Assembly (NCBI GenBank): GCA_030605085.1
Contig: JAUWBH010000101.1
Coordinates: 1 to 21,542 of the forward strand
Direction of reading: 5' to 3'
Length of the DNA stretch: 21,542 nucleotides
From: Promethearchaeota archaeon
Lineage (GTDB): Archaea; Asgardarchaeota; Lokiarchaeia; Sigynarchaeales; SOKP01
The notes below the pieces were generated by a model. It did not search any database. It saw nothing but the letters and a program-made list of their open reading frames with translations, and had not been told where the DNA came from. Position numbers and translations under genes: made by a program. This document shows positions 1 to 21,542 of this stretch, one piece after another. Position 1 is the stretch's first letter. Each line of letters opens with the position of its first letter.

Positions 1-1
1 A

Positions 2-193
2 GAATTAGTAATTGAAATAACCCCTGGAAAAATTAAGTGTCGAGAATGTAGTAAAATCTCAACTGTGACTTTAAATGAAGAGGCTTAATTAACGGGACTT
101 CAATTGTTTCAATGTAAACACTGTGAAAGTAAAAACACTGAAATAGTGGAAGGGAAAAAAGCTAATGTAAAGAATATTAAAATTCAAGAATAA
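2..193 (+). CDS. hypA: HypA-like nickel metallochaperone, C-terminal part, interrupted by an in-frame TAA
   Basis: The gene starts before the window. Read in one frame it gives a beta-strand segment (ELVIEITPGKIK), a first CxxC (CREC), an in-frame TAA at 86-88, then a second CxxC (CKHC) and a tail ending NVKNIKIQE. This matches the zinc ribbon and C-terminal strand of HypA/HybF, which delivers nickel to [NiFe] hydrogenase; the order CxxC, spacer, LFxC, xxC, EIVxG, KxIxxx is typical of the family. The stop falls in the spacer between the two zinc-binding pairs and everything after it is intact. As read, the spacer is about 21 residues, against about 12-13 in the HypA proteins I know. Removing 21 nt (83-103) would leave 14 residues and keep LFQC. 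It is either interrupted by a mini-intron or a recent pseudogene. No neighbouring hydrogenase gene is visible. Confidence 0.65.
83..103 (+). other. Candidate 21-nt BHB-type mini-intron in hypA (weak)
   Basis: GAAG at 77-80 pairs with CTTC at 98-101, giving a perfect 4-bp helix. The 3-nt bulges at 81-83 and 102-104 match the archaeal bulge-helix-bulge layout. Cutting between bulge bases 2 and 3 removes 83-103, deletes the TAA at 86-88, keeps the frame and joins NEE to LFQ before CKHC. There is no good inner stem, and 4-bp matches of this sort are expected by chance, so the exact borders are uncertain. Confidence 0.35.
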
Positions 194-373
194 ATTTTTG
201 AATAAATTTATCCTCATTGCTCAAGAAAACACCATTCTTTAGTTTTCTTCAATCAATGGTTTATTTCTGATTTTTCCACAAACGTTAAATATTAAGTTAA
301 TAATTAAGTTAATAAAAAATTATCTAACCATTATTACCGATTATTTATTTAAATTCCCGTTCAAATGACATAG
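194..373. other. Intergenic region with a hairpin downstream of hypA
   Basis: An 8-bp stem (AAGAAAAC at 223-230 with GTTTTCTT at 242-249, 11-nt loop) lies 30 nt after the hypA stop and is followed by a T-rich stretch. It may mark the end of the hypA transcript. The rest is AT-rich, with no ORF or RNA gene that I can support. Confidence 0.35.
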
Positions 374-1219
374 TTATGAAAGATTTAAGGTGTTAATATG
401 TTTTTGATAAAAAATTGCCTCGGCATTTAAACCTTGATCTACACAGAACTTTGTCAAATTTTTATATCTTTCAAGTGGATCAGCTCGACTTATCCAGCAT
501 ATTTTTGCCATACACTCGGGACAACATGCTAGTGGCCTCCTATCCGCTTCTTCTCGTGAATTTGAGCCATTCATCATGCAATTATATGAAATACAATGTT
601 TCAATGAAAAAATATGGGCAGTTTCGTGAGCCCCGGTTTTCATTGTGCGCAATAAGCATAGACGAAAATCTTTTTCACTATTCTCAGGATTTCCATTGCG
701 ATATATTGACCAAACACCTACTCTATGGAGGAGAGATCCTTGACCAAACACAAAATTCCATCCCTTACCAGGCCATAAATCTTCTGCTATAAATGCTATA
801 TACGCAGCAGCATTCTTAGGGAGGCGAGGCTTCAGAATTTTATACAAAACATATTTAGAAAGAATTTGATGATCACCCCATTGTGGATGGATTCGCTGTG
901 CTTGTGGTGGAATCTCTGACAAAGGGATGTCCTCTACGATAACTTTTGGCAAATTGTAAAATAGGCTCATAAATTCCGCTGTGAGTGTAATAATTTTCCG
1001 TTGAAGGCTAGATAAATCTCCTAAGGGTTGGATATAGATTATACGGCGTTTCTCTCGGGGAAGAACTGGATTGGAGTCAAGATATTCTTGGAAAGTTTGT
1101 CCTGATTCCTCTTTAAAGCTAAGCCATTCTCCTTTTTTAGGTTTTCCCATTTGTGTATGCAAAGGTCTTAATAGATTAATTTGCTCTTTTAATAATTTTT
1201 CAAAAGATTTCAATGTCAT
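374..1219 (-). CDS. amzA: Archaemetzincin (AMZ-like zinc metalloprotease), eukaryote-like motif
   Basis: A 281-residue protein with an ATG start. It carries the archaelysin/archaemetzincin signature: HETAH at residues 198-202, the third zinc-ligand histidine H208 followed at once by C209, then C214, the Met-turn-like CMMN, and a second CxxC (233-236). The four cysteines are expected to bind a structural zinc. Upstream, WNFVFGQ (about 154-160) is another family block. The stretch GSNSREEADRRPL and the later LERYKNL resemble human AMZ1/AMZ2 as I remember them more than typical euryarchaeal AmzA. One departure from the metzincin consensus HExxHxxGxxH is that the glycine is replaced by serine (S205). 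The length is between that of short archaeal AmzA (about 180-200 residues) and eukaryotic AMZ2. It is probably a soluble aminopeptidase-like zincin; its substrate is unknown. The gene is read separately from S8e, with 126 nt between them. Confidence 0.88.
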   Translation of the reverse strand: MTLKSFEKLLKEQINLLRPLHTQMGKPKKGEWLSFKEESGQTFQEYLDSNPVLPREKRRIIYIQPLGDLSSLQRKIITLTAEFMSLFYNLPKVIVEDIPLSEIPPQAQRIHPQWGDHQILSKYVLYKILKPRLPKNAAAYIAFIAEDLWPGKGWNFVFGQGSLLHRVGVWSIYRNGNPENSEKDFRLCLLRTMKTGAHETAHIFSLKHCISYNCMMNGSNSREEADRRPLACCPECMAKICWISRADPLERYKNLTKFCVDQGLNAEAIFYQKHINTLNLS

Positions 1220-1345
1220 ATTTCTCTATAAAAACTATTAAAATTGATAGTTATTAATGCTTCTATTTAAATAAGGTTAAACCTTGATATGAAGAAATTT
1301 AACGAGAATTAAATTTTAAAAGAATTAGCTCTAAAAATTTAAAGA

Positions 1346-1723
1346 TTAAATTAAAATCCCATTTAGGACGCCATGTTGGCCAGGGCGACTAGTAATTTTA
1401 GCTTTTCCAAGCTCTGTTTCGATTATAGCGCCTCTTGTAAGGATGTGCCTTCGATTTAAACCTCTTGAAGCTGCGTTGCTTTCGAATTTTAATATTCTCA
1501 CTTTCGAAGTTTTATTCGTTTGAGGATCTGTAACATTTATATACAAAGAAGAAAATAATTTAAGTTTATAATTACCCCCCATAACTCGTTGCTTTTTCTT
1601 TTTCTCTTTATTTACTGTTGTATGAATAGGAGGTCTCTCCAATTCCCGCTTTCTCTTCTTACGGAAATGTTTATATTTTTTACCAGTATATTTTCTTTTA
1701 CTTCTCCACTGACTTCTTGCCAT
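1346..1723 (-). CDS. rps8e: 30S ribosomal protein S8e
   Basis: A 125-residue, highly basic protein with the S8e family start (ARSQWRSKRKYTGKKYK), the ETxLGxAxITSRPGQHGVLNG C-terminal block (given here as ETELGKAKITSRPGQ plus HGVLNG) and the family's usual length for archaea. S8e is present in archaea and eukaryotes but not bacteria. It binds small-subunit rRNA. ATG start. It is divergent from the proteasome gene; the 181-nt gap between them must hold both promoters. Confidence 0.95.
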   Translation of the reverse strand: MARSQWRSKRKYTGKKYKHFRKKRKRELERPPIHTTVNKEKKKKQRVMGGNYKLKLFSSLYINVTDPQTNKTSKVRILKFESNAASRGLNRRHILTRGAIIETELGKAKITSRPGQHGVLNGILI

Positions 1724-1904
1724 AAAAAATTGACAATCCTAATTCAAATTTAATAATAGTGGTAATAAACGATATCTTTAAAATTTTTTTAAATTTAAGG
1801 CGTTTATAATTTTTTAAAGAAAAATATATTTAGTTCAATTCTTTACAAATAATATATAGCATTAAAAAAAGCAATTTTCATAATAGATTGAGATTAAGAT
1901 TTTA
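1724..1904. promoter_or_regulatory. Divergent promoter region between S8e and psmB
   Basis: AT-rich gap between two divergently read genes. A TATA-like element (AATATATAG, about 1850-1859) lies about 45-50 nt before the psmB start. On the minus strand a weaker TTTAAAGATA-like element precedes S8e. psmB has no clear Shine-Dalgarno sequence and may have a short or leaderless 5' end. Confidence 0.4.
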
Positions 1905-2543
1905 ATGATGGAAAATAATTCTAGTATTCGTAATTTAGACGAAGCTTCCATAAAAAAAGTTATGTCGGGAACCACGACTGTAGGAATAATTGTCAAAGAC
2001 GGAGTAATTGTTGGTACAGAGAGTCAAGCAACCGCCGGTTACATGGTAGCTACAAAAACAGCGCAGAAGTTATTTCAAATAAACGATTATACTTGTGCCA
2101 CTATAAGTGGAGGAGTTGCAGACTGCCAGTATGTTATCAATCAGATACAAGCGTTATCTAGACTTAAACAAGTTGAAGAAAATATTATTCCCGAGCCAAA
2201 ATACATTGCAAATATTACGAGAAATATTCTCTATCAAGGGCGTTCGTATTTTCTCGCATTGATGATTATTGGGGGGTATTCAGTAAAGGAGAAAGGCGGC
2301 AAGCTCTTTGGCATCGATCTTTTAGGTACACTTTACGAAGAGGATAAATTTATCGCCTTTGGGTCAGGATCACCGTTTTCCCTTGGTGTTTTAGAAGCAG
2401 ACTGGAAACCCGACTTGCCTAAATCTGATGGAATAAACTTAATAAAAACAGCCATTTCAGCATCGCGAGAAAGGGATGCTGCTTCTGGATTTCATATTCA
2501 AATTGCAGAAATTGATAAAGACGGCTTTAAACAGGTACAATAA
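1905..2543 (+). CDS. psmB: Proteasome beta subunit (N-terminal threonine hydrolase)
   Basis: 212 residues. A 22-residue propeptide ends in SG before the run TTTVG, so T23 would be the catalytic Thr1 after self-cleavage. Lys33 of the mature form is present (K55), as are the GSGSPFSLGVLE segment (Ser129 region) and RERDAASG (Asp166/Ser169 region). This is the 20S core peptidase, with four stacked rings degrading unfolded or tagged proteins. The usual Asp17 is Glu here (E39) and the residue normally Arg19 is Gln, a change close to the active site. The first two codons are both ATG; either may start. No alpha subunit is in the window. The next gene, convergent, is a JAMM isopeptidase-like protein, which suggests a protein-turnover neighbourhood. 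Confidence 0.93.
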   Translation: MMENNSSIRNLDEASIKKVMSGTTTVGIIVKDGVIVGTESQATAGYMVATKTAQKLFQINDYTCATISGGVADCQYVINQIQALSRLKQVEENIIPEPKYIANITRNILYQGRSYFLALMIIGGYSVKEKGGKLFGIDLLGTLYEEDKFIAFGSGSPFSLGVLEADWKPDLPKSDGINLIKTAISASRERDAASGFHIQIAEIDKDGFKQVQ

Positions 2544-2563
2544 AATATTCTCTTAATAATTTC

Positions 2564-3067
2564 TTATTCTTTAATTCTTTCCACTTCAACTTGCATAAGC
2601 TCCTCTTTAAAATAAATAAACCCGTTTAAATTGCTATTTGTAGCATCCATTATTGTCCAAACTAGATACTTAAAATTTTTTAATCCACAAGTATCTAAAA
2701 ATTTCATATGACCTAAATCTACTCCACTAGGATGAGAACCCGCAGGATGAGAATGAAATATGCTTATTAATTTTAAATTAAACTCATTATGAGCTTGTTT
2801 AAATACTCTGTTAAACTCTTCAAAATTTTCAATTAGAAATGCTACTGGGGATTTTCTATCAGATTCAAAACACTTAAAATTTTGACCAATGTAATGATAT
2901 TGGTACTGACCACTATTATTAAGTTCTATTGATTTAATATCTCCAAATATTAAGCCACACGCTTCGTTAGGACTCGCGCTCACTACGCATTTTTTCAGTT
3001 GTTCAAGTAATTTTTGACTTAATATTATTTTTATATCTTTTTGGTATTTCGTTTTATAATCCTCCAA
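2564..3067 (-). CDS. JAMM/MPN+ metallopeptidase (possible deubiquitinase-like enzyme)
   Basis: 167 residues with a JAMM motif: Glu35 in NEACGLIFG, then HSHP at 105-108, Ser114 and Asp117 (HSHPAGSHPSGVD). The spacing between the second His and Ser is six residues, one fewer than in Rpn11 (seven). JAMM enzymes use a zinc ion to cut isopeptide bonds or C-terminal extensions of ubiquitin-like proteins; Asgard archaea are known to have ubiquitin systems with JAMM proteases. No ubiquitin or E1/E2 gene is visible here. The only in-frame start near the N-terminus is TTG (3065-3067), six bases after the stop of the upstream DUF4443 gene and in the same frame, separated by three consecutive TAA codons. 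A GGAGG lies just after, not before, this TTG. Translation is probably coupled to the upstream gene. Family assignment is secure; substrate is not. Confidence 0.85.
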   Translation of the reverse strand: MEDYKTKYQKDIKIILSQKLLEQLKKCVVSASPNEACGLIFGDIKSIELNNSGQYQYHYIGQNFKCFESDRKSPVAFLIENFEEFNRVFKQAHNEFNLKLISIFHSHPAGSHPSGVDLGHMKFLDTCGLKNFKYLVWTIMDATNSNLNGFIYFKEELMQVEVERIKE

Positions 3068-3073
3068 TTATTA

Positions 3074-3745
3074 TTATAATAAAGTTAAGGAAGCATTTAC
3101 TGCCACTAATCTTGCTCTTTCAGAATTATCTCCTAAACCTATAATTATTACATCTTTTTTTTCAAGATTATAATTTTTATCTATAACTTGGTTTTTAACG
3201 TATTTTTGGACATTATCTTTTATTTCCATCTGAAATTCATCACTTTCAGAAGCGGAAGTTAATGGGAAATGAAAATTTTCTCCATCGTAAACGAGGCATG
3301 TCGCTCCAATTCCATTTACCTTAATTGCTGCGTCTCTTTGAGCAATTCCATTCGTTATTTTTTCACTACTATTTTTAACTTGACATAAATAAGCATGTGC
3401 TCCTTTAAATTCAATTATTACATCTTTTAAGATTGATAAATCACCGTCGTTAATGAGAAGTATTACATTTTTAATTTTATTTAAATATTTTAAGCCAGCA
3501 TCCGTTAAAATATGCCCTTTTCGACGATTTTTGTCTGGTACCGCTACAAAATTCGTTTTTTTACTTAATTTGGTAATTAAAGATTTTGCGGTTCCTGAAC
3601 CAATTAATAATTCTTTTTGCAAACGATATCTACCAATCCCATCAGGATTTTCTCCAAATATAAATAAGGCTAAGAGGATATGAGCGTATTCGAAAGTTGG
3701 CTTGATTGTTTCACTATGAAACATTTCGTCTAATTCTTTTAACAT
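3074..3745 (-). CDS. DUF4443-like winged-helix protein
   Basis: 223 residues, ATG start. The N-terminal ~85 residues look like a winged helix (GIGRYRLQKELLIGSGTAK, then a wing with KGHILTDAGLKYL). The C-terminal half (about 105-220) is an alpha/beta domain with AQRDAAIKVNGIGATCLVY and DVIIIGLGDNSERARLVAVNAS. This two-part layout matches the archaeal DUF4443 family, whose function is not established; a regulator with a ligand-binding or sensor domain is a fair guess. It forms a tight pair with the JAMM gene downstream. The first few codons of this gene also occur as a remnant at 5680-5712, carried along by the histone-locus duplication. Confidence 0.75.
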   Translation of the reverse strand: MLKELDEMFHSETIKPTFEYAHILLALFIFGENPDGIGRYRLQKELLIGSGTAKSLITKLSKKTNFVAVPDKNRRKGHILTDAGLKYLNKIKNVILLINDGDLSILKDVIIEFKGAHAYLCQVKNSSEKITNGIAQRDAAIKVNGIGATCLVYDGENFHFPLTSASESDEFQMEIKDNVQKYVKNQVIDKNYNLEKKDVIIIGLGDNSERARLVAVNASLTLL

Positions 3746-4107
3746 CTCTATAAATAATATTGAATCGTTAATCTAAAAAAATTATTAATACAAATAATAT
3801 AATAGAATAAAATAATAAGTATTTGTATTGTTTTCATTTGACTTATTTACATCTTGATAATTTCTCAATTCTACGATTATCTTGATTTATATTAATTAAA
3901 ATGCTGTAATCCTTGCTAGATTTCCATCCTTTTGATTTGATCTCTCAGTATTTTAACTGTAAAACATAAATTATTAAGTCATAGATAACACAAAAAATCC
4001 ACATTTATCGTTTCGGTATTTGATCGAATTTTCTTTTTTTTCTTTATTTTCAACAATCTTTTCTATTTAGCAGAATATAGATAATTTATATGAGATTATA
4101 ATTCCAT

Positions 4108-4200
4108 AATTTAACGAAAATGAAATTACGGTAAAAAATTCCAAACTTGCACCAGATTGATCATCTCCGTAAGTTGGAATTTTGTCGTTAAATTTTTTTT
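4108..4200 (+). ncRNA. Candidate structured RNA with terminator-like end, upstream of histone copy 1
   Basis: A 10-bp outer stem (AATTTAACGA at 4108-4117 with TCGTTAAATT at 4185-4194) encloses a 13-bp stem (4135-4148 with 4171-4183, one bulged A), capped by a small AGAT/ATCT hairpin. The outer stem is followed directly by a run of eight T. The second copy (5884-5974) keeps the outer stem with an A-U to G-U change and keeps the AGAT/ATCT stem while its loop differs. The element lies upstream of the putative histone TATA element (4237-4247), so it is more likely a separate small RNA, or a terminator, than an mRNA leader. A TATA-like ATAATTTATATG lies about 25 nt before it. Confidence 0.45.
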
Positions 4201-4236
4201 ATTTTTTTCTTCATAAAATTAAGGATGTTCCTAAAT

Positions 4237-4340
4237 CTTTAAATATGTAAATGATTTATGTATATATGATAAACTCTTAAAAATATAATAAAAAAATAAA
4301 AATCAAAAATTAAATTTATAAAATAATAATAAAGTGGAGG
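4237..4340 (+). promoter_or_regulatory. Histone copy 1 promoter and ribosome binding site
   Basis: TTTAAATATG (4238-4247) is a TATA-like element; an archaeal start would fall about 25 nt later, near 4270. GGAGG at 4336-4340 lies 7 nt before the ATG at 4348. The segment is almost identical upstream of histone copy 2, with GGAGG at 6096-6100, which supports the ATG in both genes even though stops follow shortly after. Confidence 0.6.
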
Positions 4341-4347
4341 AATAAAA

Positions 4348-4587
4348 ATGTCTGATTATATCTCTTGGTCTCCAATAAGGCGCCTTATGAAACAATAAGA
4401 AGCATTTCGCTTCATATGACAAAATAAGGGTGCCGTTATTGTCGCTCGAGACGCTGTAAATGAATTAGTTGATTGGATGGGTCGCAGTGCTGAAAAAATT
4501 ACGAAAACAGCTCTTACATTAACAAAACATGGGAAGAGAAAGAAAGTGACTCGCGACGATATTTTACTCGCAATCAAATACTTCTAA
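4348..4587 (+). CDS. Archaeal histone, copy 1, interrupted by a 30-nt insertion with two stops
   Basis: Reading from ATG gives MSDYISWSPIRRLMKQ, TAA, six codons, TGA, then GAVIVARDAVNELVDWM and the rest of an archaeal histone to KYF and TAA. Removing 30 nt (4394-4423) joins LMK to HKGAVIV and yields a 69-residue single histone fold: alpha1 with IRRLMK, central helix from ARDAV to TKH, loop GKRKK, then VTRDDILLAIKYF. Archaeal histones of 66-70 residues wrap DNA as dimers and longer stacks; there are no tails here. The strong GGAGG upstream and the many synonymous differences from copy 2 after the stops indicate that the whole protein is made. Splicing of the 30-nt piece is the favoured explanation; ribosome bypass is the alternative. 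Confidence 0.85.
4394..4423 (+). other. Candidate 30-nt mini-intron in histone copy 1
   Basis: Contains both in-frame stops (TAA 4396-4398, TGA 4417-4419). Fold: outer helix CCTTA (4383-4387) with TAAGG (4425-4429); bulges ACA (4392-4394) and AAA (4422-4424); inner stem of ATA/TAT, one mismatch, then GAAGC (4399-4403) with GCTTC (4409-4413) around a 5-nt loop. The outer and inner helices and both bulges are in BHB register, but the 4-bp central helix has only two proper pairs (T4388-A4421, G4389-C4420). Cutting after bulge base 2 on each side restores the frame. The borders are therefore a model. A 27-nt unit starting at the TAA and ending with a CAA codon is another frame-preserving option. 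Confidence 0.6.
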
Positions 4588-4845
4588 ATCATGTTTCTGC
4601 TTTTCAGCAGAAAAAGTATCCTTGAGCGATAAAAATTATAATTCTTTTTTTTTTAACTTCTTAATTTTTCTTAGCTTCTGTTCATTAAAATTTAGTATTC
4701 TTTGCCTAATTTGTTTCCTTTTGATTTAGGCTCTTACATGTTTTAATGTAGAATTTTAATAAAGAAAAATTGGTGAGTATGAAATTATGGAAGTTGGAAA
4801 GAAAGTATGTAAATTACTATATACGCTCAAATTATAAAATCTATG
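4588..4845 (+). terminator. Histone copy 1 terminator and T-rich gap
   Basis: Six nt after the histone stop is a perfect 7-bp hairpin (TTTCTGC at 4594-4600 with GCAGAAA at 4607-4613), followed within 35 nt by a long T run. Archaeal transcription stops at T runs. The remainder up to the 7-TM gene is AT-rich and shows no gene. Confidence 0.5.
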
Positions 4846-5604
4846 TCATTTACCATTTTCGGATCTTATTAGAACATTTGCGAGGCGCTTAGGTAGAAAA
4901 AAAGCTAAATAAAATAAAATCCCACTTAAAATTACTAATGCCCTAAATAAAGCAGTAAAAAATGGATAGATTGTTGGCACAAAAGAGTCTGACAATATTC
5001 CGGCAGTATAAATAATAAACGCCATCAGCAGTAATCTACCTTTCCACTTAATAATTTTATCGTCAATTCTCATCGTTTTTAACGAAAAATGAACGCCCGT
5101 AAAAAAAATGCTTAAAAATCCAAACATTCCGAAAATTAAAACAAAAATACCGAAGCGAATGTTAAACTTTCCTTCTAGTGCTCCAACCAGAGCAATCAGC
5201 TCTGGATCTCCCGAAAATAATAAGATGTAAAAAGTAACGTAAAACATTCCGGCAATTACGCAATAAATATAAAAAAGAATTTTCTTTTTATCTAATTCGG
5301 TCAAAATACCATACGAATGAATCCAAATTAGAAGTGTCAATGGATATAACGACGCCGCAAAACATATATACATAACACTCGACAAACCATGATCTAAAAA
5401 AATATACATAATGAATGTAATGGAGGCGGATAACCACGGGCTGCCCATGAGTACCCAGAAAATGCCGACAGGGATAAGTCTATTGTTTTTAGATTTCTTA
5501 AATTTATACATAATTCCAATTCCAATAGAGATTGTTATTATTAAAGTAATTAAAGCGAATAATCCTTCAATAAATTCTATCTGATTTAAATCTGATACTG
5601 CCAT
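4846..5604 (-). CDS. Seven-transmembrane protein of unknown function
   Basis: 252 residues with an ATG start and about seven hydrophobic helices (roughly residues 12-34, 45-70, 76-97, 108-130, 146-172, 187-207 and 214-240). Charged loops are short (KFKKSKNNR, TELDKKK, KTMRIDDKIIKWKGR) and the C-terminus is basic (RLANVLIRSENGK). There is no soluble domain and no recognisable enzyme motif. Similar 7-TM modules serve as sensor inputs of membrane kinases in some archaea, but nothing here proves a sensor role. It lies between the two histone copies and is read against them, so it was present before, or trapped by, the duplication. Confidence 0.7.
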   Translation of the reverse strand: MAVSDLNQIEFIEGLFALITLIITISIGIGIMYKFKKSKNNRLIPVGIFWVLMGSPWLSASITFIMYIFLDHGLSSVMYICFAASLYPLTLLIWIHSYGILTELDKKKILFYIYCVIAGMFYVTFYILLFSGDPELIALVGALEGKFNIRFGIFVLIFGMFGFLSIFFTGVHFSLKTMRIDDKIIKWKGRLLLMAFIIYTAGILSDSFVPTIYPFFTALFRALVILSGILFYLAFFLPKRLANVLIRSENGK

Positions 5605-5679
5605 AAAAATAAACCATAAACTTTATTTCGTTTAAAAAAAGATAGGGTTTTCTTTTAAAAATTTTTTTAAATCAATGTT

Positions 5680-5712
5680 TTATTTTGTAATAAAATCTAA
5701 TTCTTTTAACAT
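5680..5712 (-). pseudogene. Remnant of the DUF4443 gene start, carried by the duplication
   Basis: Reading back from 5712 gives ATG then LKELD, identical to the first six residues of the DUF4443 protein at 3745, then four unrelated codons and a stop. The match continues into the leader (5713-5732 against 3746-3766). It marks the left edge of the copied block and is not expected to encode a working protein. Confidence 0.75.
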
Positions 5713-5883
5713 CTCCATAATTTATATTGAATAAAAAATAAAAATTATTAAGTTATTGATAACACAAAAAATCCGATTTGATGTCTTGGAGTTTGATCGA
5801 ATTTTCTTTTTTTTCTTGATTTTCAACAAAATATCTTAGTTTGCAGAAATTAAAAAAATTAGATGTAATAATAATGCCAAATC

Positions 5884-5974
5884 TTAGCGAAAATGAGATT
5901 TCGGTAAAAAATCCTAAACTTGCACCAGATTGTTCATCTCCATAAGTTGGAATTTTGTCGTTAATTTTTTTTTA
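5884..5974 (+). ncRNA. Candidate structured RNA with terminator-like end, upstream of histone copy 2
   Basis: Counterpart of 4108-4200. Outer stem TTAGCGA (5884-5890) with TCGTTAA (5958-5964) pairs throughout, with one G-U in place of A-U; the internal AACTT/AAGTT stem is kept, as is the AGAT/ATCT cap with a changed loop. A run of T follows (5964-5973). Persistence of pairing despite base changes favours a real RNA structure. Confidence 0.45.
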
Positions 5975-6107
5975 TTTTTTTCTTCATAAAATTAAGGATG
6001 TTCCTAAATCTTTAAATATGTAAATGATTTATGTATATATGATAAACTCTTAAAAATATAATAAAAAAATAAAAATTATAAAATAATAATAAAGTGGAGG
6101 AATAAAA

Positions 6108-6377
6108 ATGTCTGAATATATCTCTTGGTCTCCAATAAGGCGCCTTATGAAACAATAAGAAGCATTTCGCTTCATATGACAAAATAACGGTGCCCTTATT
6201 GTCGCTCGAGACGCTGTAAACGAATTAGTTGATTGGATGGGTCGCTCTGCTGAGAAAATCACGAAAACAGCCCTTACCTTAACCAAACACGCTAAAAAAC
6301 ATATAAAAATATTATATGCTTAGTATAGGAAAAAGATTACACGAAACGACATCTTAATGGCCATAAAATACTTCTAA
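6108..6377 (+). CDS. Archaeal histone, copy 2, interrupted by two 30-nt insertions
   Basis: Same start as copy 1 (MSEYISWSPIRRLMKQ then TAA). The reading frame carries two interruptions: 6154-6183 (TAA and TGA, identical in sequence to copy 1) and 6297-6326 (TAG). With both removed the gene is 210 nt and encodes 69 residues, exactly the length of copy 1 after one removal. The product has the same fold, ending TKHAKRKKITRNDILMAIKYF when spliced. Against copy 1, the codons downstream of the first insertion differ mostly at third positions (for example gaa/gag, att/atc, aca/acc, cat/cac, gat/gac), the mark of purifying selection on the protein. It is therefore probably a working second histone rather than a pseudogene. 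Confidence 0.85.
6154..6183 (+). other. Candidate 30-nt mini-intron 1 in histone copy 2
   Basis: Same sequence and fold as 4394-4423 in copy 1. The outer helix CCTTA/TAAGG has one C-C mismatch here because copy 2 reads TAACGG. Removal joins LMK to HNGALIV. No base differs between the two copies inside the inserted segment. Confidence 0.6.
6297..6326 (+). other. 30-nt BHB mini-intron 2 in histone copy 2
   Basis: Absent from copy 1 at the matching position. Central 4-bp helix GCTA (6291-6294) with TAGT (6321-6324, one G-U pair); 3-nt bulges AAA (6295-6297) and ATA (6325-6327); inner stem A-T, one A-C mismatch, then a 7-bp stem CATATAA (6300-6306) with TTATATG (6312-6318) around a 5-nt loop. 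Cutting between bulge bases 2 and 3, as archaeal splicing endonuclease does, removes exactly 30 nt including the TAG at 6321-6323. It joins GCT AAA to AGG AAA AAG, matching copy 1 codon for codon (GGG AAG AGA AAG AAA). Confidence 0.75.
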
Positions 6378-6569
6378 TTTTTAGGTGGGTTAGATAAATA
6401 TAATTTTAATAAATTTCTTTTTTTTTTTTCTTGCTCTTTACCTTACTTTAATAAGATCATTATATATAGTATCGTATTTCAATAACTTATTTAATAAATC
6501 TAATTAATAGAATAACATTATATCTCTGCTTTTCAGAATTTTTATATAATTAGTTTAATAGTAAATAAT
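6378..6569. other. Gap after histone copy 2
   Basis: A run of 13 T (6418-6430) preceded by a T-rich stretch probably ends the histone transcript. No gene seen. Confidence 0.35.
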
Positions 6570-6800
6570 ATGCCCGAAAAAAAAATTTATAAAACGGATT
6601 TTCTTGGGAAAAAAGAGATGTTTTCTAAACCAAAGTATGTAATTGAGAATGGTAAGGTATATGAAACGGATTTTCTTGGGAAAAGAAAGGTTTTATCTAA
6701 ACCAAAGTATGTAATTGAGAATGGTAAGGTATATGAAACGGATTTTTTTGGGAAAAAAAAGGTTTTATCTAAACCAAAATATAAAATCGATAAAACATAA
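6570..6800 (+). CDS. Small protein made of three ~27-residue tandem repeats
   Basis: 76 residues, ATG start, no clear ribosome binding site. It consists of three near-identical units of the form (K/G)xYxTDFxGKKxxxSKPKYxIENGKV; the DNA repeat is 81 nt and almost identical between units 1 and 2 and between units 2 and 3, so it expanded recently. Alternating hydrophobic and polar residues with Gly turns suggest beta strands. It recalls bacterial beta-flower repeat proteins with the DFLGxP/YxIENGKVY pattern, but that is a resemblance only. It is rich in Lys and has no signal peptide. Function unknown. The high repeat identity argues that it could also be length-variable between strains. Confidence 0.6.
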   Translation: MPEKKIYKTDFLGKKEMFSKPKYVIENGKVYETDFLGKRKVLSKPKYVIENGKVYETDFFGKKKVLSKPKYKIDKT

Positions 6801-6851
6801 TCTTATAACAATAATTTAAGGGACGGGGATTCTTTCATGATTTTATTTAGT

Positions 6852-7388
6852 TCAAATTAAACCTTGAATTTCGGGGTGTGAAATTAATTGGTTTAATTTC
6901 TCATGTTCTTCACATGGTTCTAAACGAAAAGATATAGTACCTCCTAATTTTAATATTGGAAGACCATTACGCATAAGACACTCTATTTTTTCACAATGTC
7001 GATAACCCATTACTGAATGTGCGTGTTCGTGTAGTGCCATTATGACCATCACTAGTGTTATTTGTCCTAAATTTAGTTCTACGCCTATATCATCTTCAAA
7101 CTCAATAATACCCCCTAAAATTCTTTCAAAATTAATAGACGGTGGAGATCTTCTACTTGATCCATAAGCTACTCTGCTAGGATCAACTTTTGCTGGCACT
7201 TTATCAGTCAACCTAGCCAATTCAGGTACTTTTAATAATTCGTGTCTAAATTCAGATGCGGTAAGAACTCTGACATTTAATCCTATGTCATTTATTGTTT
7301 TAATAGTTAGATAAGCGATATGCATCCGATCAATTTCATGTCCATTAAAATAAATGATTCTATCAGGATCTTTCATACTATTTTTCAA
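6852..7388 (-). CDS. Second, divergent archaemetzincin-like zincin
   Basis: A predicted 178 residues. HEHAH (120-124) is followed by H131-C132, then C137 and M139 (GYRHCEKIECLMRNG). This recalls HExxHxxGxxHCx4CxM of archaemetzincins, but the gap between HExxH and the third His is one residue longer and the second CxxC is missing; a single LEPCEEH lies downstream. The N-terminal part (RIIYFNGHEIDRMHIAYL) has no known motif. The ATG at 7374-7376 is a likelier start than the TTG at 7386-7388; a GGAAG lies just upstream. It is probably a zinc-dependent peptidase or an inactive relative. The gene is divergent from the PrsW-like gene, with 139 nt between them. Confidence 0.6.
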   Translation of the reverse strand: MKNSMKDPDRIIYFNGHEIDRMHIAYLTIKTINDIGLNVRVLTASEFRHELLKVPELARLTDKVPAKVDPSRVAYGSSRRSPPSINFERILGGIIEFEDDIGVELNLGQITLVMVIMALHEHAHSVMGYRHCEKIECLMRNGLPILKLGGTISFRLEPCEEHEKLNQLISHPEIQGLI

Positions 7389-7527
7389 TTCTTCCTTATT
7401 TTGTCTTTTTCATTTACCTTACAATTATAATATTAACATAAGTTAAAATTAATATTATCGTATTTCAATAATTTATTTAATAAATTTATTTAATAATATA
7501 CTATAATCAGAAAAAAATAATTTAACA

Positions 7528-9225: not shown

Positions 9226-9359
9226 TTTTTTTTTATCATAATTTTTTTTTAAATTATTTATCAAGTAGACAACGAATTAAAGAAATTAGTTATTTTACAT
9301 AATCAAAATAAGAATTTAACTTAAGAATTGTAAACTTTAAAATTATATATTTTTACTTC

Positions 9360-13169: not shown

Positions 13170-13238
13170 AATATAGTTTATGAAAGTATAAATGTCTAGT
13201 TTGTTTATTTTTTAGTTTTTTTAATATTTCGAAAGTCA

Positions 13239-16200: not shown

Positions 16201-16634
16201 TTTTCGTAATATAATCGATCTATATTAACTTCCGTATCAGAAACAATTATTTTTTCTAAAAAGAAATCTAAATAAAAATAATATTTTGTTTGAACCAAAA
16301 ACTTCTTTTTTGTTTTTATTTGCCCTTTAAAATAATTCCGATTAACCATATCAAGAACAAGTGAACGAACATCTCTTATTTTTATGGGATTATTTCTTTG
16401 TTTTATATTGTATTTTTTAATTATATCGGAAAGTGAAATTATGCTATTATTTAAAAGCTGATCGGATATCGTAGATGCAATAAGACTATTCCTTTCATTG
16501 AGATTCACTAAATAATTTCGGAATTCGACTTTATTATCTAAGATTTTTAAATTAATAGTGTAATAGCTATTAATATAAGAAATAACCTCTTCAATTCCAT
16601 GCGTCAGTCCATATGCTGTTTTAACCTGATTCAA
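13239..16634 (-). CDS. Giant coiled-coil protein with two C-terminal membrane helices
   Basis: 1131 residues as called. About residues 130-970 are almost entirely Lys/Glu/Ile/Leu helix, a long coiled coil. A winged-helix-like module may lie near the N-terminus (about 60-125, SLSDIIKKYNIKQRN with RDVRSLVLDMVNRNYF) and another before the membrane end (about 985-1040, YLTIGFLNNELRIKKKK with HLIFLISVGMLKGKYD). Two hydrophobic helices follow (about 1075-1095 and 1100-1120) with a basic tail, giving a tail-anchored layout. Function unknown; tethering, scaffold or cytoskeleton-like roles are guesses. The start at 16634 is a TTG with no ribosome binding site and there is no in-frame ATG for about 90 codons. 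The upstream toroid gene is in the same frame, separated only by TGA and 39 nt, so the two may be one gene. Confidence 0.7.
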   Translation of the reverse strand: MNQVKTAYGLTHGIEEVISYINSYYTINLKILDNKVEFRNYLVNLNERNSLIASTISDQLLNNSIISLSDIIKKYNIKQRNNPIKIRDVRSLVLDMVNRNYFKGQIKTKKKFLVQTKYYFYLDFFLEKIIVSDTEVNIDRLYYEKSKLKDIKNDIFNMTLKLKTTSVQIKEEIESYLLLEELSLAKERLKYVIRDALMEADFLNENIENSFNEDLYYIDIHNIFKSEIAQWSELYEILSKKLKEVNAYLMDKISEKEEIRDLNKSLDELEEKIFVFSEAINRKIDDFKQLFRETFEKGYSDKGFSLIIKEFEKLRQNIDEFGAKIHEISQKITLKEELIVQKRTKIINKWISINELLTEIFKDYLEGFNFFKENLDKIGSLKNNFIQKSNAIGDKAQNKVDDHKFVEAFNIIKDESERLLNDKIYKIKELQKNVKTEIKSKQKLYLLYRHLLGKLDLLEGDLVSIIQEQEQTLKNIVIESRNRAILKDFDNFVSKMISKFKTELKNYKNSLDQSADKKIKEIINGFGNIQNKFDETDRLYLKKLNNCRETIVNFDDKYKVTTIQWENFKEYINHEISVLKDDYINNIITEKINSIVSEKKTNTIKVSELKKELGLKCKVLMERIRDMIEISKLNAELYEAEKCVLIYTNHYYKNKDLRNFIESKLLKLTRETVGKILALYDSSIRNRTLNVNMLELKNRINDLNFDEIIRIQFNNKIEELQIDKTRKEFLDTKNYLDLVIKNNELAIDSIKSNLELFTNKQNFIAQEFNVLKLELNKKYAKIFEEIEKSRGKAYLKVKESFERKWTKLASQFEQTQETIENDLKLTLNKSNESFQLASEIGEFIVKKKKEFAKEYEDKKEKIIDELRILKNEAFRGKLITYINNKKILMSQLLGTLQARVEDDIETKEFRRAHYKIQKRVKHIELEVKEISKDIKSLVKDFNKQTINFELKNKHILDDFNKFVKGYFIVLMEKVKSLERIIVKTYIEMAIKAVANEYLTIGFLNNELRIKKKKIQDHLIFLISVGMLKGKYDPRFGIYYENPEILDDLDVEELETIKKMNFRVYMFLRRIKTFLSHYGSIFGFFASLLAITYYIYIFSGSNPAVLAFPILIVLILVFYFIFKRGKEEKVKV

Positions 16635-16655
16635 ATCAACATATTTTAGTAAGTC

Positions 16656-16676
16656 TAATTGCTTGAATATAAATCA
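16656..16676 (-). other. Speculative 21-nt mini-intron joining the toroid and coiled-coil ORFs
   Basis: On the minus strand ATTG (16682-16679) pairs perfectly with CAAT (16661-16658), with 3-nt bulges AAT and TAG. Cutting in BHB fashion would remove 16656-16676, including the TGA, and join NEIE to DLLKYVDLNQVKT in frame. There is no inner stem in this register; a competing 6-bp hairpin TTGAAT/ATTCAA overlaps it. Weak on its own. Confidence 0.25.
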
Positions 16677-17645
16677 TTCAATCTCGTTAATGAATTTGTT
16701 CCATATTATTGATAAAAGGATTATTAATTTTGAGATATCCATTAATTTAATAAGATTTGGACTAGTATTTTCGCTTAAAATTTCGTTCAAAGTTGAATTT
16801 ATAAATGAATAAATCCCTACTGGATTATAATCCAACAACCAAGAATAATTATCGAGCGCAAATGTTATCCAAAAAGTTGTGTTAATTCTTCCAGTCAATT
16901 TTTTAAAACTAAATCCACCGTTCTCTTTTTGAAATTGAAGCAAATATTGAATTTCCCTATCTTTAACATTATATTCAAGATCCAAATGTTTAAAACATAA
17001 TAATTTGAAAATTATTGAGGGCTCTCTTTTTTTATCGCCTAGAAATGAGAGAAAAATACTTTTATTAACACGAACATCGACTCCTAGTAGTATAAAGGAT
17101 TCTATAGCAAAATATAAATTTTGTTGACTGGAAGTTTTCTTACAAATTTCACAATCAATTTCAAGGCAATGTAAAAATTTATTTCCTTTTTTGTGCGCTA
17201 GGATAAAATCCTTTATTTCCCTATTAATTAAATCCATTCCTTTAGAAGCTAAATATTCTTTTATTAAACCAATAAGTTTTAAACTTGCTAAAGCGTAATA
17301 TGTGGACCATATATCTGGTTTTTTCGGAGAATTAGGAGCTTGTTTGAATCCTAACTTACCTTCTTGAAAAATTTCACACTTTTTTATGAATTCGTATATC
17401 TCATCAATATTTTCTTTCTCATCCTCGCCTAAATATTTTCTCAATAAAAGAAACCAATAAACATTTTCAAGATTTATTAACTTACTCGTAAATAAATCTT
17501 CATTAAAATAATGATATATCTTTAAAATTTCATCATTTTTACTAATGTAAAAAGCCCCTATATCCTTAACAAAAGCAAAAGAAACGAAAAGTTCTTTTTT
17601 AAATTCCGTTATATAAGGATAAGCAGTCTTCCCTTGAATTGTCAT
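16674..17645 (-). CDS. Alpha/alpha-toroid (prenyltransferase/squalene-oxidase repeat) protein
   Basis: 323 residues, ATG start. Repeats such as KPDIWSTYYALASLKLIG (about 109-126), NLYFAIESFILLGV and QFQKENGGFSFKKLTGRIN followed by TTFWITFALDNY match the QxxxGGF-W-T-YxALxxL repeats of the prenyltransferase beta / terpene cyclase toroid. Only about three to four repeats are clear, and the zinc or catalytic residues of prenyltransferases are not evident, so this is a fold prediction. A CxxDCEIC segment (about 156-164) may bind a metal. The end TGA (16674-16676) is in frame with the coiled-coil ORF downstream (see 13239-16634). Such repeat domains often act as binding modules in large archaeal proteins. 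Confidence 0.6.
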   Translation of the reverse strand: MTIQGKTAYPYITEFKKELFVSFAFVKDIGAFYISKNDEILKIYHYFNEDLFTSKLINLENVYWFLLLRKYLGEDEKENIDEIYEFIKKCEIFQEGKLGFKQAPNSPKKPDIWSTYYALASLKLIGLIKEYLASKGMDLINREIKDFILAHKKGNKFLHCLEIDCEICKKTSSQQNLYFAIESFILLGVDVRVNKSIFLSFLGDKKREPSIIFKLLCFKHLDLEYNVKDREIQYLLQFQKENGGFSFKKLTGRINTTFWITFALDNYSWLLDYNPVGIYSFINSTLNEILSENTSPNLIKLMDISKLIILLSIIWNKFINEIE

Positions 17646-17981
17646 GTTGACGATTTAGTTTTTTATAACTTTCTCTTTAATTATCGAAATGAATACATAA
17701 ACATAAAAAAAAAACATTCATTTATTTTTTTAGGAATATTTCTCAATAAAAATAAAGTAATATCTAGGTTTTATTTAGATTTAAAAAGTTATTTCAATTC
17801 CTTCGTTTAATTTTAGAATTAAAGCTTAAAAAGACCGATATTCTGTATTTTTTAAATAAAACTTTTGTGAGTGTGAAGTTAACCTGATATTTTAATTTAT
17901 CAAAAAAATCTAAAAGGGTTCTAACATTCTAACACATATAATTTTAGATAATAATTTTACAATATTTATCAGTGAATTCAT
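17646..17981. promoter_or_regulatory. Divergent intergenic region (336 nt)
   Basis: Very AT-rich gap between divergent genes. A TATA-like TTTTTTAAATAAA (about 17849-17861) could serve the aminotransferase, but lies about 120 nt before its ATG. I see no ORF, tRNA, hairpin terminator or repeat that I can support. Confidence 0.3.
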
Positions 17982-19166
17982 ATGGTTTCTAGAAGACTTA
18001 GAGACTTAGAATATGCGATAAGGGATGTTTCAGTTATAGCTAACGAAGTACGAAAAACAGGTAAAAAAGTTTACCATTTGAATATTGGTGATCCCGTTAA
18101 ATACGATTTTAGAACACCAAAATACATCTCTCAAGCTATGGCTGACGCTACCTTTGCTGGACAAAATTTCTATGTCGATTCTTTGGGAGTTAGAGAACTT
18201 CGGGAAGAAATATGCAAGTACGAGCAAGGAAAGAACTCGATCGATATTACTCCTGACGATATTTTAGTTACTTCTGGAGTAACTGAAGGAATCTTTTTCG
18301 TACTTTCAGGTTTAATGGAAAATAATAACGATATTCTAATTCCCGGTCCTTCCTATCCAGTTTATATTAATTATACAAAATTTTTTGACGGCATCCCTAT
18401 TGAATACAAATTAGAAGAAGAGAACGATTGGGAACCAAATATCGACGATTTACGAAAAAAAATTACTAATAAAACGCAAGCTATTTTGATTGGATCTCCT
18501 AATAATCCAACAGGCGTCGTATTTAATAAAAAAAAGACCAAAGAAATAATTGATATTGCGGGAGAATACGAAATTCCTATCGTTTCCGATGAAATATACG
18601 ACCAAATTGTATTTGAAAAGCAATATGTTTGCCCTGCTTCACTTAATAAGGATGTTCCTATAATTGGCATGAATGGATTCTCAAAAGCTCATCTTGCAAC
18701 AGGATGGAGAATCGGCTATATATATTATTACGATCCAGAGAACAAACTGGCAGAATTTAGAGAGGGTATAGAAAAAATGGCAAGGGCAAGGTTATGTGCT
18801 AATTCTGTCGCTCAATTTGCTGCCATAGAAGCTTTAAAGAATCCTGGACCTCATACGGACGAGATGGTTAAAGAATTAAGAAAAAGAAGAGATTATTCTT
18901 ATAAAAGAATCCGACAGATTGAAGGATTAACTTGTGTTAAGCCAGAAGGGGCTTTTTACTTGTTTCCAAAAATTGATTTTAAAGAGTTCTCTAAGTGGAA
19001 GGACGACAAAGAATTCGTTGTAGATCTTCTTAGGAAAACGGGCATTTGTACCGTTTATGGTTCTGGGTTTGGAAACTACGGTAAAGGACACGCAAGAATT
19101 ACTTTCTTACCAGAATTAAAAACCTTAGAAATTGTTTATAATCTCATCGAAGATTTTTTGAAATAG
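17982..19166 (+). CDS. PLP-dependent class I aminotransferase (alanine aminotransferase-like)
   Basis: 394 residues, ATG start. Fold-type I motifs: LNIGDP (33-38), the phosphate-site TSGVTEG (97-103), GPSYPVY (122-128), NNPTG (174-178, Asn175 binding PLP O3'), DEIY (203-206) and the Schiff-base lysine K235 in MNGFSKAHLATGWRIGY. The C-terminal ARITFLP holds the substrate-carboxylate Arg. The length is typical of archaeal alanine/aspartate aminotransferases, and the SKxxLATGWRIGY and PEGAFYLFPKI blocks match those annotated as alanine aminotransferase (pyruvate + glutamate to alanine + 2-oxoglutarate). Substrate is inferred only. It is convergent with the lactate/glycolate-oxidase-like unit, which could share pyruvate. 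Confidence 0.9.
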   Translation: MVSRRLRDLEYAIRDVSVIANEVRKTGKKVYHLNIGDPVKYDFRTPKYISQAMADATFAGQNFYVDSLGVRELREEICKYEQGKNSIDITPDDILVTSGVTEGIFFVLSGLMENNNDILIPGPSYPVYINYTKFFDGIPIEYKLEEENDWEPNIDDLRKKITNKTQAILIGSPNNPTGVVFNKKKTKEIIDIAGEYEIPIVSDEIYDQIVFEKQYVCPASLNKDVPIIGMNGFSKAHLATGWRIGYIYYYDPENKLAEFREGIEKMARARLCANSVAQFAAIEALKNPGPHTDEMVKELRKRRDYSYKRIRQIEGLTCVKPEGAFYLFPKIDFKEFSKWKDDKEFVVDLLRKTGICTVYGSGFGNYGKGHARITFLPELKTLEIVYNLIEDFLK

Positions 19167-19257
19167 ATTCAATAAATGTTTCTGATAATAGAATATTATT
19201 TTTATGAATACAAAAAAAAATTATAAAAAAATAATGAGCAAAAAAGCTCCTAATTAT

Positions 19258-20640
19258 TTATTCTAAAAGATCTTTTTCAGATGGCTTTTCTTTTATATCT
19301 AAAAGATTGTACTTACTGATCATTTCAAGAACGCCCATAACTTGCAAGCCATGAGCATAAAGTTCGTTGGCATCCGAAAGATTTCTCCAGCAAAAGGGAC
19401 ATTCAGTAGTAAGTATGTCTGCTCCAACTGCATTAGCTTCATCACATCTTAAACTCGCAGTTCTTAGAGAGAAATCGGGATAACCGGCTCTTACACCACC
19501 ACCCGCTCCACAACACATGCTATTTAGCTTTATGCGATACATTTCATCAAATTTTATTCCGACATCTTCCTCAAGTTTTCTTAATATCACTCTCGGGATT
19601 TCAAACCACGCATCTTGTCTCTGCTTTATCTTACGCATATCGAACATTAGATTTTTTGACTCTTTGATCATTTCCTGTTCAATGTCTACGGCAAAGTGTC
19701 TCCCAGTATGGCATGGATCGTGGTAAGTTACAACTTTACCTTTTAACTCTTTATTCGCTTTGAAATTGATTTTTCCATCTGTAATTAATTTAGAGATTAG
19801 TTCAAACGCGTGTTGGGTCTTGAAAGGAAGCTTTTCACCTTTCCCTATCCATTTAGGATAATCAATTGTAAATGTCCTATAGCAACCAGCGCACGAGAAA
19901 TAAACTTTTTCTAAATTCTTAAAGGCTTCGAGGTTTTTGTTCATTAATTCCTGCGCAGTATCCACGGCACCTACTCTAAAGAAAGGGCTTCCGCAACATA
20001 CTTCGTCTTCAATTAATGTAAAATTCATTCCTAACTGCTCAAAAACCTTCGCAGTTGCGATGGCAACTTCTACTTGACGATAACTCGCAGTACATCCCAC
20101 ATAATAGCCGATCTTAGCGTCTTTATTGTTAATATATTTTCCTAAACCGGCATCTTTTGACCATTTAAATCTTTCGTCAGCTGCACCACCATAAGGATTG
20201 TTTCTTTCCTTAACCAATCGGTCTACTAATTGATGTTTATCGATCATTGGTATGCCCGCTTCTACACACGCAGCACGTAGAGACTCAATTATATCCACAG
20301 TCGGAATTTTGTTTTCGCATTGAGCTGAACACATCCCGCAGGTTATACAGGGCATTAAAACATCTCTAACTTCTTCGGAAAATTCCAAATCACCGCTTAA
20401 AATTGAACGTGCAATCCATATTTTTCCCGCGTTCCAGAAAGCTTCCCATCCGTATTCAATACCTGCCGGGCAAGCGTCAACCATCCCTTCGTAAAGAACA
20501 TCTTTTTGTTTGCCTTTAAATTCACCAATCCCTTTTCTATCGGGTTCGCCAGAATAAGCAAAACGGCATGCCTTACAGTGAATACATTTATAAATATCTT
20601 TTTTTAAATCTTGTAACCTATCCATTCCAGTTTTTGACAT
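19258..20640 (-). CDS. Fe-S oxidoreductase with two CCG domains (GlcF/HdrD/LldE-like)
   Basis: 460 residues, ATG start with a strong AAAGGAGG 10 nt upstream. N-terminal cluster motifs: CIHCKAC (19-25) with a distant CP (57-58), and CITCGMCSAQC (98-108); the first motif is irregular, with the fourth Cys about 30 residues on. Two cysteine-rich CCG domains follow: GCTASYR / EVCCGSP / CAGCYRTF, and HDPCHTGRH / SMCCGAGGG / TECPFCW. CCG domains bind a non-cubane [4Fe-4S] or similar and are found in heterodisulfide reductase HdrB/D and in the GlcF or LldE subunits of glycolate/lactate oxidases. The FAD-linked oxidase just upstream makes the second role likely: electrons from a 2-hydroxyacid via FAD to the clusters and on to an unknown acceptor. 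Confidence 0.85.
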   Translation of the reverse strand: MSKTGMDRLQDLKKDIYKCIHCKACRFAYSGEPDRKGIGEFKGKQKDVLYEGMVDACPAGIEYGWEAFWNAGKIWIARSILSGDLEFSEEVRDVLMPCITCGMCSAQCENKIPTVDIIESLRAACVEAGIPMIDKHQLVDRLVKERNNPYGGAADERFKWSKDAGLGKYINNKDAKIGYYVGCTASYRQVEVAIATAKVFEQLGMNFTLIEDEVCCGSPFFRVGAVDTAQELMNKNLEAFKNLEKVYFSCAGCYRTFTIDYPKWIGKGEKLPFKTQHAFELISKLITDGKINFKANKELKGKVVTYHDPCHTGRHFAVDIEQEMIKESKNLMFDMRKIKQRQDAWFEIPRVILRKLEEDVGIKFDEMYRIKLNSMCCGAGGGVRAGYPDFSLRTASLRCDEANAVGADILTTECPFCWRNLSDANELYAHGLQVMGVLEMISKYNLLDIKEKPSEKDLLE

Positions 20641-20646
20641 TTTTCT

Positions 20647-20712
20647 TTAACCTCCTTTGTTTATGGAAAAATTATCTTCCATAGGATGCATTATCATATT
20701 TTTATTTTTCAT
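20647..20712 (-). CDS. 21-residue small ORF between the oxidase subunits
   Basis: ATG at 20712 is preceded by a strong ribosome binding site (AAAGGAGG, about 9 nt upstream) immediately after the FAD oxidase stop. It reads MKNKNMIMHPMEDNFSINKGG, shown here as MKNKNMIMHP then MEDNFSINKGG, and ends in TAA. Its last codons AAA GGA GGT TAA are also the ribosome binding site of the Fe-S gene, so its translation would sweep that site and could couple the two genes. It is short and Met-rich. No homologue is recalled. Either a tiny subunit or a leader peptide, or simply a decayed gap; the Shine-Dalgarno is the main evidence. Confidence 0.5.
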   Translation of the reverse strand: MKNKNMIMHPMEDNFSINKGG

Positions 20713-20731
20713 TTCTATCAACCTCCTTTGC

Positions 20732-21542
20732 TCACGGTAATGCTAATCGTCCTGGATGCATAATTCCCGCAGGATCTACAAGCTTCTTGAATGCCCTTAA
20801 GTATTTCCAGTACATACCAGCTTGATAATAAGCTTGTATATGGATGTAAGGATCGGGCCTGTAGTTAAGCCATCCTCTTTTTAAACCGTAATCCGTAATA
20901 TCTTGATTAAGTTCTTGAACTCTTTCGAAATCCTCATCTTTTGTACTGTCAAAACAAACGATAGGCATGCAAATTGCTTGTCTACAGCGTTCTATACTTG
21001 CGATCCAGAGAGTCGGTGGAAATCCATGTTTTTCCGATGCTGCAACAAACATATCTGCAAACTCGGCACACTCTGGCCAAGGCGTATACCATGTTATAAA
21101 CAAGAAGCCAGCTTCCCAGAAACTGTACGGAATAGCAATTTTATTAGGTTTCTTCATTCTGCTAGCTATTTGTTTGGGATGAAGTTCCCATGGCTTCATG
21201 GCAGCTCCATCTTTAGCTCTATTTTTCTTGTAATCTTCGGCCATTTTGTTAATTGTTTCAACACAATGATTCAATTCGCTTTCTTCTTGTGCCCAAATCT
21301 CCCAATTGATGTCTTTAGTAGTATTTACTAAAGAATTCATCCACCATTGACTAACTCCAATTTCCTCGTAGAATTTGTAATCGTGCGGCACTTTATCTTT
21401 AGGCCATCTTGTCATAACGAGATGATAATTCCCACCTTGGACCATTCCGTTTCCAAAGCTATAGACGCTTTAAAATTTACGGTATGGTGAGAGATCCCGA
21501 ATTCCTTTTTAGCGACTTCTAAGGTTAAATCTTGCATATCTT
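20732..21542 (-). CDS. FAD-linked oxidase, C-terminal part (GlcD/DLD-like), interrupted by a 32-nt mini-intron
   Basis: The gene runs past the window on its 5' side. The main segment (from 21444 down) has VQGGNYHLVMTRWPKD, a cap domain with IWAQEESELNHCVETI, and the C-terminus VDPAGIMHPGRLALP typical of the FAD-oxidase type 4 / vanillyl-alcohol-oxidase C-terminal domain (LDPxxIxNPGK). Upstream the protein-like frame is a different one: DMQDLTLEVAKKEFGISHHTV, split as DMQDLTLEVAKK plus EFGISHHTV, which runs without a stop to the window edge. The two frames are joined exactly by removing 21445-21476. Without removal, the downstream frame has TAA codons just before it. The enzyme should oxidise a 2-hydroxyacid (lactate or glycolate) and pass electrons to the Fe-S protein downstream. 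Confidence 0.85.
21445..21476 (-). other. 32-nt BHB mini-intron in the FAD-linked oxidase gene
   Basis: On the minus strand: central helix CCGT (21482-21479) with ACGG (21450-21447), four Watson-Crick pairs; bulges AAA (21478-21476) and AAT (21446-21444), each 3 nt; inner stem TTTTAAAGC (21475-21467) with GCTTTGGAA (21459-21451), nine pairs including two G-U, 7-nt loop. Cutting after the second bulge base on each side removes 32 nt. 32 is two more than a multiple of three, exactly the shift needed to move from the upstream frame to the downstream frame. The junction codon becomes A|TG. Confidence 0.78.

Follow-up and report, generated by a model that had tools for sequence, protein, structure and literature searches.

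Introns in the pre-mRNA of crenarchaeal cbf5 were reportedly described by Watanabe in 2002. In the parts of PMC2738675 drawn on here, these introns are short (16–44 bp), of the bulge-helix-bulge (BHB) type, present in Sulfolobales and Desulfurococcales and tied to a hetero-oligomeric endonuclease, a type of enzyme linked both to the cbf5 introns and to relaxed motifs (Yokobori 2009, PMC2738675); unconfirmed predicted introns in other protein-coding genes are cited there too, as are the putative introns of a virus of archaea, 12 bp long and of unproven splicing (Peng et al.). Among the other sources, likewise drawn on in part, one places a BHB intron in the 5' untranslated region (5'UTR) of Haloferax HVO_1309 (PMC7714728) and another finds tRNA introns to be abundant in the Asgards Atabeyarchaeia and Freyarchaeia (PMC11291895). 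By the portions of PMC7714728 and PMC2738675 used, confirmed BHB introns of archaeal mRNA are so far limited to cbf5, as the only coding gene, and to a single 5'UTR. Here we describe a 21.5-kb stretch of chromosomal DNA from a Promethearchaeota archaeon (Lokiarchaeia, Sigynarchaeales; contig JAUWBH010000101.1, positions 1 to 21,542; the whole stretch is termed the window), in which the histone and several neighbour genes match Lokiarchaeia loci, and in which five short insertions in two tandem histone genes and a FAD-linked oxidase gene are very probably BHB mini-introns in mRNA, as judged from protein alignment and predicted fold.

These candidates resemble the cbf5 introns in being short, of BHB type and located in protein-coding genes, but cbf5 is a single gene, whereas the present set covers 20 positions in six other gene families of Asgard genomes, with 32 of 41 insertions exactly 30 nucleotides (nt) long; the host genes encode histone, FAD oxidase, CCG-domain protein, FwdB, EF-1A and EF-2, not cbf5 (cbf5 itself was not searched). 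With the BHB introns of archaeal tRNA and rRNA they share an identical motif and presumably the same enzymes, although the host is mRNA, in which the reading frame must be restored. As with HVO_1309, an mRNA is the predicted substrate of the splicing endonuclease, the Haloferax case being confined to an untranslated region of one gene, and the archaeal virus likewise has tiny insertions in the coding genes of an archaeal system, but of 12 bp and likened here by description only. The byp elements of Magnusiomyces capitatus are similar in that many short inserts are tolerated in needed genes, but there the ribosome hops over the insert, and BHB geometry lies outside the model as given in the part of PMC5009743 used. 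No report of mRNA introns in Asgards was found in the open-access literature, preprints excluded. The size of the elements is not new: the original prediction had held mRNA introns of about 30 nt to be a novelty, a length within the range given for cbf5 (PMC2738675).

Insertions in the histone and FAD oxidase genes of the window

Insertions were detected by protein alignment and the fold was scored afterwards. For each insertion, every way of cutting out a segment of its length that matched the ortholog proteins best was listed as a register and then scored against the canonical geometry (a central helix of 4 bp, two bulges of 3 nt, and a cut after the second bulge base), a strict fit being defined as 4/4 central pairs and at least 7/9 inner pairs. 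Compared with relatives, three window genes carried five extra segments of 30–32 nt. Histone gene H1 (4348..4587, + strand) has two exons separated by a 30-nt segment with in-frame stops (4394..4423, +; histone site a), and its predicted spliced product, MSDYISWSPIRRLMKHKGAVIV..., is matched by relatives; the BHB here is of the relaxed kind, with 2/4 central pairs and an inner helix of 8/9. Histone gene H2 (6108..6377, +), a tandem copy of H1, has three exons, and its first 30-nt mini-intron (6154..6183, +) agrees with that of H1 in site and sequence; since H1 and H2 are close tandem copies, the identical first insertion was counted as one event. Two other histone loci, L085 and L045 (the latter from bin ABR03 and carrying two insertions), have an insertion at this codon position too, but of different sequence and with a complete central helix (4/4). 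The second 30-nt mini-intron of H2 (6297..6326, +; histone site c) pairs GCUA with UAGU (one G-U) between the bulges AA|A and AU|A, and its removal would restore AKRKK.

The FAD-linked oxidase gene (20732..21542, − strand) has its 5' end outside the window and three exons inside it; its orthologs are L087–L116, and the ortholog L088 matches Pfam FAD_binding_4. A frame-shifting segment of 32 nt (21445..21476, −; FAD site b) forms the helix CCGU:ACGG with an inner helix of 9/9, and its excision restores HHTVMVQGG, while a stop-free segment of 30 nt (21306..21335, −; FAD site c) forms GAUG:CAUC, again with 9/9 inner pairs, and divides WWMN|WEIW. Uninterrupted relatives align on both sides of the insertions at 4394–4423, 6154–6183 and 6297–6326 (+) and at 21445–21476 (−), each of which brings in a stop or shifts the frame, and in all four the BHB register that best preserved the protein coincided with the coordinates of the original prediction, which had overlooked the stop-free fifth insertion. 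No such segment was seen in the aligned parts of the helicase, proteasome, rpS8e, DUF4443, 565-amino-acid membrane protein and HdrD-like genes of the window; this comparison covered genes with an ortholog among the loci, which leaves out, for example, the aminotransferase.

Both histone genes are preceded by a nearly identical block (4120–4347 and 5890–6107 of the window), part of which (ggaattttgtcgtt) also lies upstream of the interrupted histone of L045; it is perhaps a conserved element of histone genes, either promoter or leader.

Geometry and recurrence in related genomes

By alignment and predicted fold, the same class of element is present in related genomes, in genes for EF-1A, EF-2, FwdB, a CCG-domain protein and other histones and at other sites of the FAD oxidase. 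The catalogue comprises 41 insertions of 29–33 nt (30 nt in 32, 32 nt in six, 29 nt in two and 33 nt in one) at 20 positions in the six families; three of the 41, all at EF-1A site d (genomes G190, G194 and G212), come from outside the order, elsewhere in the phylum. A stop or a frame shift is introduced by 37 of the 41, and a cut after the second bulge base restores both the reading frame and conserved protein, the residues regained including ITRND, CGTLCDD, HHTVMVQGG, GHADFVKN and MTDSDDEEQ; the predicted junction peptides of the spliced products are QMTDSDDEEQER for EF-2 and GISHHTVMVQGGNYHLVMTR for the FAD oxidase.

Strict BHB fit was found in 30/41 introns and 16/20 sites (31/41 introns when EF-1A site b is entered at its true length of 33 nt), whereas 24 decoy geometries with other pairs of bulge sizes (1 to 5) gave a strict fit in at most five introns and two sites. 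All four central pairs can form in 36/41, or in 37/41 with EF-1A site b of G055 taken at 33 nt. Shuffling the intron interior gave p < 0.003 at 17/20 sites, the remaining values being 0.0095 for FAD site a, 0.15 for FwdB and 0.96 for EF-1A site b, which had been entered at the wrong length; with that entry included, the Fisher-combined p over the 20 sites was about 1e-35 (1.5e-21 for an earlier set of ten). At EF-2 site a, covariation across nine genomes scored 0.137 as against 0.064 in shuffled alignments, a value reached by 1/500 shuffles. Here, as at histone site a and EF-1A site d, the site is shared while the inserted sequences have diverged. None of the 41 has GT...AG ends in the chosen register, as spliceosomal-type introns would, and Rfam gave no match at gathering score in the window, so no group I or II ribozyme core was recognised there; the inserts measure 29–33 nt. 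The BHB reading that the original prediction had advanced for the window is supported for the histone and FAD oxidase insertions and extends to 20 positions in six families, though with just two of the four central pairs in the first intron of H1 and H2.

For most genomes the judgement came from match tables, and sequence was available for 30 FAD loci (and G073), 20 EF-1A loci (and six more), 30 CCG loci, and 12 EF-2 loci with 14 further pieces. The histone, FAD and CCG families were examined since an intron had been noticed there, while EF-1A was picked without prior knowledge. Genome scanning with the spliced histone returned 51 loci, nearly all uninterrupted by match length, and the gene was interrupted in three of the 79 genomes of the order (G001, G035, G046) among the matches listed. 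FAD oxidase matches were found in 63 genomes, at least eight of which are interrupted: G004, G035, G040, G041 and G043 by a 32-nt frame-shifting insertion at GLE|SQIP, G051 by one of 30 nt, and G071 and G073 by a stop-free one. The last of these (FAD site f in G073; L322 152–181, −), a 30-nt stop-free protein insertion with a G+C-rich hairpin, 3/4 central and 6/9 inner pairs, stays in the counts as a miss. The CCG-domain protein is interrupted at an identical site in G041 and G044, and FwdB on contig C201 of G001, where the downstream part matches TIGR03129.

EF-1A was interrupted in 3/67 genomes with a match over the family cut-off (G001, G007, G055), and none of the three has a second match over the cut-off (G007 has a weak partial one). 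For EF-2, 13 genomes looked interrupted in the match table; in their sequences, which for ten of the 13 comprised a 5' piece only, 12 carry an insertion, at three positions, site a being interrupted in nine genomes. In the 761 nt compared for G035, whose EF-2 had been flagged, no insertion was seen, and G077 has an insertion at a fourth position. Six genomes (G029, G031, G038, G040, G047, G056) have the interrupted copy as their sole EF-2 match at E ≤ 1e-60. AlaS, the contrast gene, had an internal stop in none of 63 matches over the cut-off, by match table only. The distribution suggests, without proof, that intron gain follows transcript abundance, favouring histones, EF-1A, EF-2 and FAD oxidase over AlaS.

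Bulk comparison of 1.6 Mb of stretches from G004, G008 and G033 yielded no new intron, with a cross-genome match for just 11–29% of bases, and one new gene (CCG) emerged when stretches of G004 (contig C2), G041 (contig C23), G046 and G035 were added. Introns common to all genomes compared, or stop-free in poorly covered genes, escape such detection. Further stop-bearing rows stand outside the counts: EF-2 of G067, G027, G028 (contig C272) and G039, the CCG paralog of G034, the histones of G065 (C301) and G006 (C138), and EF-1A of G016 and G114.

The P-loop position HG|K is interrupted in both EF-1A (L293 168–200) and EF-2 (L312 84–113), paralogous GTPases of different genomes.

Proposed splicing and its rival explanations

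The simplest account of these insertions is that they are BHB introns in mRNA processed by the tRNA pathway, and the interrupted messages are likely to be spliced before translation. In the predicted course of events a bulge-helix-bulge forms in the pre-mRNA, both of its bulges are cut behind the second base by the tRNA-splicing endonuclease, and the exons are joined by RtcB ahead of translation; transcription, cleavage and ligation of the RNAs of these genes, and a gain that favours highly expressed genes, are what we infer. Genes for both enzymes were found in related genomes, as distinct from the window's own: the splicing endonuclease (PF01974) in 11/11, as two genes in eight and as one in three, and RtcB once in each of 10/10, so that the expanded machinery for which the original prediction had proposed to look was not seen in these relatives. 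Endonuclease L237 exceeds the NCBIfam endA cut-off and is closest to the tRNA-splicing endonucleases 3p1z, 3ajv, 2cv8 and 2zyz of the PDB, which we take to be crenarchaeal heterotetrameric enzymes.

Several observations weigh against BHB splicing. Ten of the 41 fall short of a strict fit: the first introns of H1 and H2 (a weak case with 2/4 central pairs, though with 8/9 inner pairs and an outer helix), one of the two at histone site d, FAD site f and FwdB, and all five introns at FAD site a (inner pairs 4–6 of 9). Unconstrained minimum free energy folding yielded the entire central helix in only 24/40, and at EF-2 site a only two pairs changed on both sides, a number equalled in 145/500 shuffles. 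In a fold-only scan of 2.4 Mb, a kind of test that the original prediction had proposed, the loosest limits gave 223 distinct candidates against 177–214 for the 24 decoy geometries, and of six stricter settings five fell within the decoy range and one (9 inner pairs) equalled the decoy maximum; there being no convincing excess over the decoys, the elements are not countable by fold alone. An intron-like BHB score of 11 is also reached by a 30-nt insertion in L012 that is probably an ordinary indel. Intact histone paralogs lie beside the interrupted copies in G001, G035 and G046, the named source records among the loci of the spliced-histone scan are metagenome assemblies, and the L045 and L085 histones differ at 2/44 synonymous and 4/169 nonsynonymous sites, too few to claim selection.

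The main rival is translational bypassing, in which the mRNA keeps the segment and ribosomes skip it, known from T4 gene 60 and from the mitochondrial byp elements of Magnusiomyces; it would account for short frame-disrupting blocks between intact stretches of protein, and the part of PMC5009743 used gives a count of 81 inserts of this sort for Magnusiomyces mitochondria. Matching triplets, one preceding the segment and one at its end, were present, however, in just 4/41 (best-protein register; one entered at the wrong length), albeit that the matching is imperfect in several byps (same part of PMC5009743). Bypassing, moreover, predicts no 4-bp helix with two 3-nt bulges, which fits 30/41, and the established cases named in that part of the source are from phage and mitochondria; we regard it as very unlikely here. 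Less probable still is an origin of the interrupted copies as pseudogenes or through faulty assembly, notwithstanding the isolated nonsense codons in the hypA and coiled-coil genes of the window and the intact paralogs of the interrupted histones. Downstream of the first intron, H1 and H2 differ at 19/36 synonymous and 9/126 nonsynonymous sites, and this mostly synonymous change indicates that the downstream part is still selected as protein; in the three genomes with an interrupted EF-1A no further copy exceeds the cut-off, an argument against pseudogenes, since such a gene could hardly be dispensable provided that the bins are nearly complete; nine genomes share an interruption at one EF-2 site; and all 41 lengths are 29, 30, 32 or 33 nt. 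The slightest probability of the three attaches to chance, or to ordinary protein indels that fold by coincidence in genes rich in AT, an explanation with which the outcome of the fold-only scan and the score of the L012 indel agree. Against it, BHB scores were at most 8 at other lengths and 9–13 for sense-strand insertions of 30–33 nt (at least two supporting alignments; twelve known-intron loci excluded), and neither the shuffle p values at 17/20 sites nor the stop or frame shift in 37/41 would be expected of it.

Beyond BHB splicing in the genes catalogued, we lean, with little better than even confidence, towards a broader reading: that Asgard archaea possess widespread, actively turning-over mRNA introns of about 30 nt, spliced by tRNA endonuclease and RtcB, which have settled repeatedly and at many positions in the genes transcribed most (those of histones, EF-1A, EF-2 and energy metabolism), perhaps via reverse splicing into abundant transcripts and reverse transcription. 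If so, the archaeal lineage nearest to eukaryotes would already live with interrupted essential genes. Were the messages spliced, mRNA introns would be far commoner in archaea than the one established gene, many archaeal proteins would be mis-annotated as fragments or pseudogenes through gene finders that miss such introns, Asgard cells would need their tRNA-splicing enzymes to express histones and translation factors, and the gain and loss of introns could be tracked in natural populations. The elements would also offer a concrete example of how archaeal relatives of eukaryotes tolerate and spread introns, through a mechanism that has nothing to do with group II introns or the spliceosome.

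Candidates set aside and a neighbouring gene

The list of interrupted genes in the original prediction held for the two histones and the FAD oxidase but not for the two genes that it had named as possible cases, hypA and the coiled-coil (toroid) gene, each of which has one nonsense codon and no inserted bases. In hypA, 4/4 relatives have five codons beyond the shortened query, equal to the unspliced length (the window reads 63 codons there), and lack the stop; the TAA at 86..88 (+) is therefore a point nonsense codon. The coiled-coil gene, a single open reading frame of about 1470 amino acids in the orthologs compared, aligned continuously to three orthologs, with an in-frame TGA (16674..16676, −) where these have R. 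The L012 insertion mentioned above lies in the coiled-coil gene of that locus (16881–16910, one alignment), and was left uncounted as probably an ordinary indel because other loci carry 27 nt at the same place.

A 29-nt split in L020 (2320–2353, one alignment) offered no frame-restoring BHB that keeps the protein; the approximately 29 extra bases, between PTTR and PAEY, have on either side the arms of a perfect inverted repeat of 8 bp (ACTCGGCT/AGCCGAGT). The one fold-scan candidate common to the stretches of G004 (C2) and G046 (C10) proved to be an in-frame TGA at DCSI*ILGPVM rather than an intron, in a gene that we take to be HdrA, the TGA probably encoding selenocysteine. Elsewhere in the window, positions 6570–6800 hold a small gene of three near-identical repeats (KxYETDFLGKKKVLSKPKYVIENG).

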